From: Piscirickettsiaceae bacterium CG07_land_8_20_14_0_80_44_28 | GTDB lineage: Bacteria; Pseudomonadota; Gammaproteobacteria; Thiomicrospirales; Thiomicrospiraceae | Direction of reading: 5' to 3' | Length of the DNA: 36,672 nt | NCBI GenBank assembly: GCA_002779995.1 | Contig: PEWX01000061.1 | Location: 1-36,672, forward strand | In this document: piece after piece, positions 20,240 through 36,527 of the stretch | Layout: each line of letters begins with the position of its first letter | How positions within the stretch are numbered: position 1 is the first letter of the stretch | Made by a program: the position numbers and the translations under genes | The notes under the pieces: generated by a model | Database searches by the model: none | Seen by the model: only the letters and a program-made list of their open reading frames with translations | What the model was told of the DNA's origin: nothing

Positions 20240-20280
20240 AGTTTAAATTTATTTTTGATATTAAAGAAAGGGTTTTGAAC

Positions 20281-20985
20281 ATGGCGAAAAAAGAAAATTG
20301 GATTGCACCATCAATTTTATCTGCAGACTTTGCACAACTTGGAAAGGATGTGAAAGATGTGATTGCAGCAGGTGCTGATGTAGTGCATTTTGATGTGATG
20401 GACAATCATTATGTCCCTAATTTAACCATTGGCCCTTTGGTCTGTGAGTCGCTAAAAAACTTTATGGATCGGGAGGGGGTTAAAGCGCCGATTGATGTGC
20501 ATTTGATGGTGAAGCCGGTTGATCGTATTATCCCTGACTTTGCATCAGCGGGTGCGGACTATATTACTTTTCATCCAGAAGCCTCTGAGCATGTTGACCG
20601 CTCATTGCAGTTAATCAAAGGTGAAGGTTGTAAAGCCGGGCTAGTCTTTAACCCTGCGACGTCTTTGAGTTATTTAGAGCACGTTATGGATAAGATTGAT
20701 ATGATTTTAATTATGTCGGTCAACCCCGGATTTGGTGGTCAAGCTTTTATTCCCCAAGCGTTAGAAAAATTAAAAGCCGTTCGACAAATGATTGATGCTT
20801 CCGGGCGTGATATTCGTTTAGAAATTGACGGTGGCGTGAAAGTGGAAAATATTGCAGAAGTTGCTGCGGCCGGGTGTGACACCTTTGTCTCTGGTTCTGG
20901 TATTTTTGGCAAGGCCAATGCGTCTGATGCTAATCGATACGATACCGTTATTCAGCAGATGCGAGAAGCGTTGGCTAACGCTTAA
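20281..20985 (+). CDS. rpe: Ribulose-phosphate 3-epimerase
   Basis: This enzyme interconverts ribulose-5-phosphate and xylulose-5-phosphate, the step before phosphoribulokinase in the Calvin cycle and part of the pentose phosphate pathway. The TIM-barrel landmarks are [10 protein letters not shown] (S11), the metal-binding [17 protein letters not shown] (H36, D38), HLMV and [15 protein letters not shown] and the phosphate-binding SGSGIFG complete the set. The GAAAGG site at 20266-20271 fits the ATG at 20281 (234 residues); an upstream in-frame TTG at 20275 is too close to it. It is followed by gph and the trp genes, a common gammaproteobacterial order. Confidence 0.96.
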
Positions 20986-21012: not shown

Positions 21013-21037
21013 AAACGCCAGTCCAAACTGGCGTTTT
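21013..21037 (+). terminator. Hairpin between rpe and gph
   Basis: A perfect 10-bp stem, AAACGCCAGT (21013-21022) with ACTGGCGTTT (21027-21036), closes a CCAA tetraloop. The T tract is short (TTTT within and after the stem), so it may be a weak terminator or an mRNA-stabilising hairpin. Confidence 0.5.
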
Positions 21038-21092: not shown

Positions 21093-21782
21093 ATGACACA
21101 ACAAAAAATTAAGCCCGAGTTCATTTTGATTGATTTAGATGGCACTCTTATTGATAGTGTGCCTGATTTAGCCTATTGCGTGGATGAAATGATGAAACAA
21201 CTCAATTTACCGACCCGCGGTGAAGCGGCTGTGCGTGACTGGGTTGGCAATGGGGTTCAGCGTTTAGTGGAAAGAGCGCTGGTCAATTCGGTAGAGGGGA
21301 TGCCGGAAGCATCATTGATGGATCAAGCTTATCCTATTTTCCTTGATTTATACCAAGTTAATACGTCTCAAAGAAGCCGTGTCTATGATGGCGTAGTAGA
21401 AGGTATCGAATGGATGAAGGCTCAAGGGTATGGCGTGTCTTGTGTCACCAATAAAGCAGAAGCTTTTACGGTGCCGTTGTTGAAAGATAAAGGTTTGTAT
21501 GATTATTTTGAAGTGGTGGTTTCTGGTGATACCTGTGCTGAGAAAAAGCCTCATCCGATGCCACTGCTTTATGCCGCCGAAAAGTTGGGGATTGCACCTG
21601 AAAACGCACTGATGATTGGAGATTCTCAATCTGATGTTAAGGCTGCACGTGCCGCCGGCTTTGATATTTTTTGTATGACTTATGGCTATAACCATGGTGA
21701 AGATATTCGCAACTATCAACCCGATGCGGTGATGGATTCTTTTATGGAATTGCCAGACTACTTAGCTGCAAAGTCATTCTGA
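21093..21782 (+). CDS. gph: Phosphoglycolate phosphatase, HAD family
   Basis: This enzyme dephosphorylates 2-phosphoglycolate, the toxic product of RuBisCO oxygenation and of DNA repair. The HAD motifs are complete. DLDGTLIDS has nucleophile D14 and acid D16. TNKAEAF carries motif II Thr, KKPHPMPL motif III Lys, and MIGDSQSDVKAA the acidic motif IV. An alpha-helical cap lies between motifs I and II. Four in-frame starts exist (TTG 21036, ATG 21060, 21081, 21093). The TTG is inside a hairpin, and only the last ATG has an A/G-rich site (GGAAAA) at suitable spacing, so I chose 229 residues. The annotation relies on family, the rpe neighbour and the likely autotrophic lifestyle; related HAD phosphatases differ in substrate. 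Confidence 0.88.
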   Translation: MTQQKIKPEFILIDLDGTLIDSVPDLAYCVDEMMKQLNLPTRGEAAVRDWVGNGVQRLVERALVNSVEGMPEASLMDQAYPIFLDLYQVNTSQRSRVYDGVVEGIEWMKAQGYGVSCVTNKAEAFTVPLLKDKGLYDYFEVVVSGDTCAEKKPHPMPLLYAAEKLGIAPENALMIGDSQSDVKAARAAGFDIFCMTYGYNHGEDIRNYQPDAVMDSFMELPDYLAAKSF

Positions 21783-21801
21783 AGCCAAGGGAGTGACCTG
21801 A

Positions 21802-21939
21802 ATGAAATCGTTTTTAAAAGCCTTTTTAATCCTATTGACGAAGCCTTTTTGGTGCTCTATGACAGGTCTTTATCAAACGATTCAGTTAAGAAAGTTTGTT
21901 CGGAAATCTGCGCTAACGCCAGCAAAAGAAGGGGGGTAA
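21802..21939 (+). CDS. Possible 45-residue small protein between gph and trpE
   Basis: An ATG at 21802 is preceded by AAGGGAG at 7-8 bases and opens 45 codons ending in TAA at 21939, two bases before the trpE start. The product [20 protein letters not shown]... is hydrophobic at residues 4-20 and then basic ([13 protein letters not shown]), like a small single-pass membrane peptide. Its last codons (GAA GGG GGG) form the trpE ribosome binding site, so its translation would be coupled to trpE. It contains a single Trp (residue 17), unlike a classic trp leader with tandem Trp codons. I do not recognise a family. Conservation alone can decide whether it is made. Confidence 0.5.
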
Positions 21940-21941
21940 AA

Positions 21942-23447
21942 ATGACTGATGCGCATTTTGCCGACTTGTTTATGCAGGGGTATAAAACCGCACCAGTGAT
22001 GCGAACCATCTTGTCGGATTATGATACCCCTTTAAGTGTTTATCATAAGGTCGCAAATCAACCCAATAGTTATTTATTTGAGTCGGTTCAGGGCGGAGAT
22101 AAATGGGGTCGTTACTCCATTATTGGCTTGCCTTGTGCCAAGCGATTGGAAATTATCGGCAATCAAGTGTCTTTATTTGATGGCGATCAATTGATCGAAC
22201 AACAAATGTCAGATGATCCTTTGGCTTGGGTGGCGGCTTTTCAGTCTCGTTTTAACGTTTATGAGCCAGCAGGATTGCCTGTCTTTACCGGTGGGTTGGT
22301 TGGGTATTTCGGTTATGACACCGTTCGTTATATTGAACCCCGTCTACGTCATTCTCAGCCTGAAAAGGATGATATTGAAGCGGCCGATATTCAGCTGTTG
22401 GTATCGGAAGAAATCGTGGTTTTCGATAATTTAAGTGGTCAGGTTCATGTCATTGTGCATGCCGACTTGGCGCAACAAAATGCTTATTCAAAAGCAGAAT
22501 CGCGTGTCGTTGAAATTGCCAAGATGATTAGTCAACCGATGATGATGCCAAATGATCTGCCTCAAGCAGAGGCGTTAACGGAACAAGATTTTGTGTCCAG
22601 CTTTGGCGAGCAAGCGTTTAAAGAAGCGGTTGGCAAGATTAAAGACTATATCCTTGCCGGCGATGCTATGCAGGTTGTGATTTCACAGCAAATGTCAGTT
22701 GATTTTGATGCAGCACCAATCGATTTATATCGGGCATTACGCTATCTCAACCCTTCTCCTTATATGTTTTTTGTAGATTTAGGGCATTTGCAAATCGTCG
22801 GTTCATCCCCTGAAATTTTGGTGCGACTGGAAGATAACACCGTTACCGTTAGGCCGATTGCCGGAACACGGCGTCGTGGATTGACCCCGGAAAAGGATCA
22901 CGCATTAGAAGTGGATTTGCTATCCGATCCAAAAGAGTTGGCGGAACATTTAATGTTGATTGATTTGGGGCGAAATGATGTTGGACGTATTGCCCAAGTC
23001 GGTTCGGTTGAGTTGACTGAAAAAATGATTGTAGAACGCTATTCACATGTCATGCATATTGTTTCAAATGTGAATGGGCAAGCCAAGCCCGGTATGTCTT
23101 CTTTGGATGTGTTGAGGGCAACATTTCCCGCCGGAACGGTTTCTGGCGCGCCGAAAATTCGAGCCATGGAAATCATTGATGAGCTAGAGCCGGTAAAACG
23201 TGGCGTTTATGCTGGAGCAGTCGGCTATTTAGGGTGGCATGGCAATATGGATACGGCCATTGCGATTCGCACAGCGGTGATTAAAGATGGCCGTTTGTTT
23301 GTACAAGCCGGTGCAGGGGTGGTCGCTGACTCAGTTCCTCAGTCAGAATGGGATGAAACCTTAAATAAAGGGCGAGCTATCTTTAAAGCGGCAGAGTTTG
23401 TTACAAAAGGTTTAAAAACCGATAATCCTGATGTTGGACATCGTTGA
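21942..23447 (+). CDS. trpE: Anthranilate synthase component I
   Basis: TrpE converts chorismate and ammonia to anthranilate, the first step of tryptophan synthesis, with TrpG supplying ammonia. The frame is open from 21849, but GGGGGG just before the ATG at 21942 gives a good site, and [10 protein letters not shown] is a normal N-terminus, so 501 residues are likely. The N-terminal [10 protein letters not shown] corresponds to the tryptophan feedback-binding LLES region. The chorismate-binding domain shows [25 protein letters not shown] and [18 protein letters not shown]. Tryptophan inhibition is inferred from family. It is 23 bases upstream of trpG in a trpE-trpG-trpD-trpC order. Confidence 0.96.
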
Positions 23448-36312: not shown

Positions 36313-36387
36313 GCGGGTATCGTATATTGGCTATTACCTCGGCCTTCCAAGCCGATGAGGGGGGTTCAATTCCCCCTACCCGCTCCA
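36313..36387 (+). tRNA. tRNA-Gly (anticodon TCC)
   Basis: The 75-base gene has an acceptor GCGGGTA paired with TACCCGC, discriminator T and encoded CCA. The anticodon stem is TCGGC/GCCGA around CTTCCAA, giving TCC. The T arm reads GGGGGTTCAATTCCCCC. Confidence 0.95.
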
Positions 36388-36451: not shown

Positions 36452-36527
36452 GCTCTCATAGCTCAGTAGGTAGAGCGCATCCATGGTAAGGATGAGGTCA
36501 TCGGTTCGATTCCGATTGAGAGCTCCA
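36452..36527 (+). tRNA. tRNA-Thr (anticodon GGT)
   Basis: The 76-base gene has an acceptor GCTCTCA paired with TGAGAGC, discriminator T and encoded CCA. The anticodon stem is CATCC/GGATG around ATGGTAA, giving GGT. The D arm AGCTCAGTAGGTAGAGC is standard. Confidence 0.95.

Follow-up and report, generated by a model that had tools for sequence, protein, structure and literature searches.

Between gph and trpE in the genome of Piscirickettsiaceae bacterium CG07_land_8_20_14_0_80_44_28 lies an open reading frame (ORF) of 45 codons, raising the question of whether so short a frame is a gene and, if it is, whether it acts through its protein product or through the translation of trpE. The stretch of DNA analysed, here called the window, is the 36,672 bp contig PEWX01000061.1, part of a draft assembly of 2.28 Mb. 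An initial annotation of its letters had described the ORF, the ribosome site in front of it, and a second ribosome site, that of trpE, formed by its last codons; all three are present (Table 1), the last of them within the final codons GAA GGG GGG. The ORF occupies most of the 159-base gap between gph and trpE, with its ATG 19 bases 3' of the gph stop and the trpE ATG two bases past its own stop. An ATG ORF of 45 codons in such a gap arose in 0.4% of 5,000 first-order Markov resamplings, in which a ribosome site was not required. The gene series in the window is rpe-gph-small gene-trpE-trpG-trpD-trpC, where the three genes 3' of trpE are presumably trpG, trpD and trpC, judging by position and translation. 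A search of the window against Rfam returned two tRNAs only, and the same search of 12 loci (that of the window's genome and 11 others) gave two matches, neither of which reached the gathering score or lay at the small gene.

Table 1. Coordinates of the small gene, its signals and other features of the window
Feature	Position	Strand	Evidence and remarks
rpe (ribulose-phosphate 3-epimerase)	20275-20985	+	TIGR01163 above cut-off; listed from first TTG
gph (phosphoglycolate phosphatase)	21093-21782	+	TIGR01449 and NF009695 above cut-off; ATG start picked by eye (ORF listing has TTG at 21036)
Ribosome site of small gene, AAGGGAG	21787-21793	+	Sequence; 8 nt 5' of ATG
Small-protein gene	21802-21939	+	ATG at 21802, 45 codons and TAA (21937-21939); homologues, selection
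Core PFWCSMTG, codons 15-22 of small gene	21844-21867	+	P15, C18 and G22 invariant in 39/39 homologues
Ribosome site of trpE, AAGGGGGG, within final codons of small gene	21929-21936	+	Sequence
trpE (anthranilate synthase component I)	21942-23447	+	TIGR00564 above cut-off; start agrees with relatives
tRNA gene	36313-36384		Rfam
tRNA gene	36452-36524		Rfam

Distribution among relatives and selection on the frame

Of the 62 genomes of the order, all but G045 yielded a trpE gene, and the DNA upstream of it was read in all 61. An intact homologue of the small gene lies directly 5' of trpE in 39 of these: nine of the 11 genomes of its own genus, Hydrogenovibrio (g1), and 30 of the 31 of a second genus (g5). 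It was found in none of the 19 genomes of g2, g3, g4, g6 and g7, whose gph-trpE gaps measure -1 to 28 bases. The window protein as sole query recovered homologues at E values of 1.8e-6 or lower in nine of 11 genus genomes, the window's own included, and g5 was reached by profile search; five g5 members (G029, G037, G039, G043 and G044) were missed by the first motif and were added through their N-termini. Every profile match with an E value of 0.002 or lower across the 62 genomes adjoins trpE, weaker matches away from trpE (E of 0.01 or higher) being treated as chance, and the small gene also adjoins gph in all 38 readable cases, the contig of G034 stopping short of that flank.

Frame breaks in relatives had been named in the initial annotation as the evidence to look for against a gene. 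The frame is kept in 39 genomes; the two own-genus members without it, G002 and G005, have gph-trpE gaps of merely 43 and 34 bases, and one g5 member (G038, locus L086) carries in its 193-base gap a remnant that by eye is recognisable but broken. The gene is therefore dispensable over evolution, and since some lineages lack it, it is not needed for TrpE. On a TrpE+Gph tree its distribution requires five presence changes, at least three of them on well-supported branches, and carriers cluster on the tree, none of 500 shuffles giving as low a count; a single gain with several losses, the one scenario considered, fits this tree. A wider sample of the class gave matches in three of 369 genomes, namely the window's genome, a known g5 carrier, and G362; the last match (E 6.7e-4) crosses an ORF of 915 codons, which we take to be secA, in a different frame and was set aside as chance. 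When named genome contigs were searched with a peptide pattern, 10 stretches matched and three were confirmed, all from Hydrogenovibrio, and plasmids and phages gave no match.

The comparison of substitution rates that had been proposed for the ORF points to purifying selection in its own frame only: between the window and G001, dN/dS was 0.16 in frame, whereas the two alternative frames gave 0.86 and 1.50. The in-frame value was 0.24 over the nine Hydrogenovibrio members and ranged from 0.02 to 0.28 over nine overlapping sets, which together take in 31 of the 39 genomes and omit eight; the lowest value belongs to G028, G030 and G040, which differ little from one another. With stops left out, the other two frames of these sets gave 0.57-1.61 and 1.12-2.79. 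Among 19 pairs with a trpE pS below 0.62, 15 were computable, all between 0 and 0.53, and four were saturated; single dN/dS values are rough, because many synonymous distances are near saturation. From P15 onwards, in-frame dN/dS was low where computable (0.13-0.33). The family alignment shows a conserved core, whereas the ends vary: the invariant P is preceded by a K or R in all 39 members, F4 is kept in 37, and the core retains C and G in members without W. As purifying selection acts at the protein level, the ORF is judged a real protein-coding gene. It offers a clean example of a 45-codon ORF being settled as a gene by its relatives rather than by a database.

The small protein

Members of the family are 36-56 residues long, and the 45-residue protein of the window has a net charge of +7. 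The N-terminal half, described in the initial annotation as hydrophobic, is indeed so, but it is also amphipathic, with a best 19-residue Kyte-Doolittle mean of 1.18 and a helical moment of 0.46. The usual threshold for a membrane span on this scale is 1.6; over the family, the best 19-residue value ranges from 0.79 to 2.18. AlphaFold modelled the window protein as one bare helix (residues 2-38, mean pLDDT 79), a prediction that says little about the fold because its pTM is 0.38. The helix would be amphipathic and basic. Some members may span a membrane, which is doubtful for the window protein, and the suggestion of a small membrane protein has so far found no support, the hydropathy being borderline and the model showing a helix and nothing more. 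No Pfam or NCBIfam family matched the window protein above cut-off, and 26 members searched against the families gave isolated stray matches, none of them stronger than E 0.015. The PDB yielded no credible match by sequence (best E 0.2) and none at all by fold. None of the titles and abstract openings listed, from a body of literature that takes in few subscription papers, describes the small gene.

Since it is the amino-acid sequence that selection preserves, the gene most likely acts through its protein product. The explanation that we regard as probable is that the gene encodes an orphan small protein, acting as a protein and made together with TrpE. The product would be an amphipathic, basic and probably single helix of 36-56 residues with an invariant PxxCxxxG core. 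Ribosomes completing the small gene may start trpE directly, the arrangement of the two genes being observed and their coupling inferred, and the small protein would be made alongside TrpE. Anthranilate synthase and the membrane surface are two possible sites of its action, the choice of partner being a guess.

A variant of this explanation, to which we give rather little weight, holds that the product is a small membrane protein whose task has nothing to do with tryptophan and whose gene is simply carried along in the operon. The hydrophobic, amphipathic N-terminal half, the basic C-terminal half and the family's hydropathy range would suit such a role, and one study reports linkage of trpE to cbbE and cbbZ, homologues of rpe and gph, in obligate autotrophs (PMC2942843). 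The modest hydropathy of the window protein, the universal K or R before the invariant proline, and the restriction of all the better profile matches to the side of trpE argue against it.

A predicted hairpin in the second genus and the relation to trpE

The distance from the stop of the small gene to the start of trpE is -8, -4, -1 or 2 nt in 26 of the 39 genomes and 15 to 107 nt in the other 13. At its other end, the gene begins no more than 36 bases past the gph stop in 18 of 38 readable genomes, all nine own-genus members included. With the trpE ribosome site located in the final codons of the small gene, terminating ribosomes could start trpE directly. In 26 of 39 genomes the stop overlaps the trpE start or is no more than 2 nt away from it, so that translational coupling, judged from gene arrangement, is plausible though not obligatory. 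The arrangement that the initial annotation had read as coupling is confirmed as one that permits it; its further proposal, a leader ORF controlling trpE, has so far gained no support, given spacings from -8 to +107 nt and the accessibility of the trpE start. Compared with 40 synonymous recodings per genome, this accessibility was not reduced (mean z +0.34 over 39 genomes), with G042 (-3.4) and G051 (-3.5) less accessible and G044 (+3.7) more accessible than their recodings. The idea that RNA of the small gene hides the trpE start was rejected on this mean.

Within one g5 clade of 10 genomes, synonymous differences were found in 118 of 583 same-residue codons of the N-terminal region of the small gene. 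For trpE the figure was 2531 of 5371 overall and 666 of 1369 when its first 40 codons were taken alone, and for the first 40 codons of gph it was 88 of 308. Low synonymous change is not a feature of the whole family, since other groups were mixed (17 of 43 in G023, G046 and G047; 30 of 64 in G037, G039, G043 and G044). A 20-pair stem, in which the leader pairs with the LLLEIF codons across the start codon, may account for the low change in this clade, and part of the N-terminal conservation in g5 may come from the RNA hairpin and not from the protein. The stem extends from about 34 bases 5' of the ATG into the early codons (loci L062, L063, L067, L070, L073 and others), with two mismatched positions kept in most.

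By an arm-specific test, designed after the pairing had been noticed, 15 of 30 g5 genomes and 0 of nine g1 genomes paired better than their synonymous recodings (5% or fewer as good); the stem is present in 17 g5 genomes, of which G023 (32%) and G035 (8%) fail this test. In an alignment of the 17 genomes (A2), 87.4% of cells pair, against 42.5-52.7% when the arms are slid. Both sides change in six pairs (a count reached by 4 of 500 shuffles), and 10 such cells were counted, compared with 4.0 in shuffles (0 of 500). This test retains G020 and G047, although the alignment of their 5' arms is visibly wrong, and it showed no rise in further pair types, for which 176 of 500 shuffles scored at least as well. 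In an earlier test, with 309 of 357 paired where shuffling gave 296.8 on average, the 5' arm of each genome was chosen for best pairing, which favours native pairs; the A2 test is the fairer one. Whole-fold energies over the 30 g5 and nine g1 genomes showed no general structure (mean z -0.37 and -0.90, the latter driven by G009 and G007). A covariance model, with 150 candidates scored per genome, matched at E below 1e-4 in one place each in 13 of 20 genomes searched, always at the small gene and including six genomes outside its training set, one of which, G042, had failed the recoding-based pairing test. This result is weaker than it appears, because the model includes coding sequence and homologues can match it by sequence. 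Matches at E of 0.3 or higher were treated as chance, though that of G003 falls at its small gene, and among the 150 candidates scored in the window's genome nothing was found. In g5, though not in the genome of the window, covariation supports a predicted hairpin around the start of the small gene.

Upstream of the small gene, terminator-like sites were found in 11 of 39 genomes, all of them g5, and a recurrent palindrome, ACCAGGCCTGGT, was seen by eye in g5 loci such as L071, L069 and L063. Together these suggest a separate transcript of the small gene and trpE in that genus.

It could be held instead that the small gene is an upstream ORF acting in cis, whose peptide matters little and whose translation gates or feeds trpE by termination and reinitiation, tuned by the hairpin in g5. 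The frequent overlap or abutment of stop and start and the covarying hairpin are in line with this, and reinitiation at short leader genes has precedent (PMC4833913). We nevertheless judge it unlikely, as amino-acid selection continues beyond P15, outside the hairpin, spacing to trpE reaches 107 nt, the trpE start is on average no less accessible than in synonymous recodings, with G042 and G051 as exceptions, and no member of the window's genus shows the pairing.

Leader peptides and other known systems

Leader peptides of the trpL/peTrpL type are encoded by a short ORF before trpE, and the position of the small gene would suit a leader at whose Trp codons ribosomes stall, with a transcription attenuator ahead of trpE. 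The window gene has one Trp codon (21850-21852), and its homologues have 0 in 10 genomes, 1 in 16, 2 in six, 3 in three, 6 in one and 7 in three, so that conserved regulatory Trp codons are not a property of the family; those with three are own-genus members, and those with six or seven are four g5 members. A terminator-like site between codon 11 and trpE was predicted by script in one of the 39 genomes (G041, inside the ORF), or in two when G009 is added by eye. In the window, no terminator on the + strand precedes trpE, the single predicted site being on the - strand inside trpE, and the stop of the small gene leaves two bases before the trpE start. With 10 of 39 members lacking Trp and terminator-like sites in just two, attenuation of this kind was rejected as the function of the family, in agreement with the initial annotation, which had denied a classical trpL from the lone Trp codon; despite the Trp-rich members and the sites in G009 and G041, we consider it highly improbable.

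In those Trp-rich members, G026, G030, G028 and G040 (loci L074, L079, L089 and L091), 6-7 of the 40-56 residues are Trp; Trp sensing could be imagined there, but the script detected no terminator in them. In G009 (L020, reverse strand), a stem AACTTTGC/GCAAAGTT with a long loop, followed by five T, lies between the small gene and trpE and is a possible attenuator in that one genome.

That the ORF is a product of chance, as its shortness and want of a database family might suggest, is scarcely credible in view of its conserved frame and in-frame purifying selection.

No Trp repressor family matched above cut-off in any of the 62 genomes of the order; weaker matches occur in four of them, that of the window's genome scoring 24 bits against a cut-off of 27 in a 331-residue frame. 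The small gene is thus an orphan addition, with a conserved protein sequence, to what is known of a textbook operon, in an order without a Trp repressor above cut-off. To the probable explanation of a small protein made with TrpE may be added a tentative and rather doubtful extension, in which this lineage-specific protein, coupled to TrpE, tunes anthranilate synthase in such an order, and in g5 its own translation and that of trpE would be gated by the hairpin.

Among known systems, the small gene resembles trpL and peTrpL in being a short ORF 5' of trpE, and differs from them in having no conserved Trp codons, no attenuator in the window and purifying selection across the whole ORF. PMC4833913 describes leader genes that are thought to boost the next gene through ribosome reinitiation, that usually encode no stable protein, and whose spacing to the structural gene peaks at 10-13 bp. 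The small gene is like these in ending beside the start of a structural gene (2 nt away in the window), but it is conserved as a protein where a leader peptide would be free of selection, and its common spacings of -8 and -4 are overlaps. TrpM of Streptomyces coelicolor is reported to modulate tryptophan biosynthesis (PMC5036795) and, like the product of the small gene, is a small protein whose gene lies within a trp operon; trpM belongs to a trpCXBA locus in another phylum, whereas the small gene of the window lies 5' of trpE.
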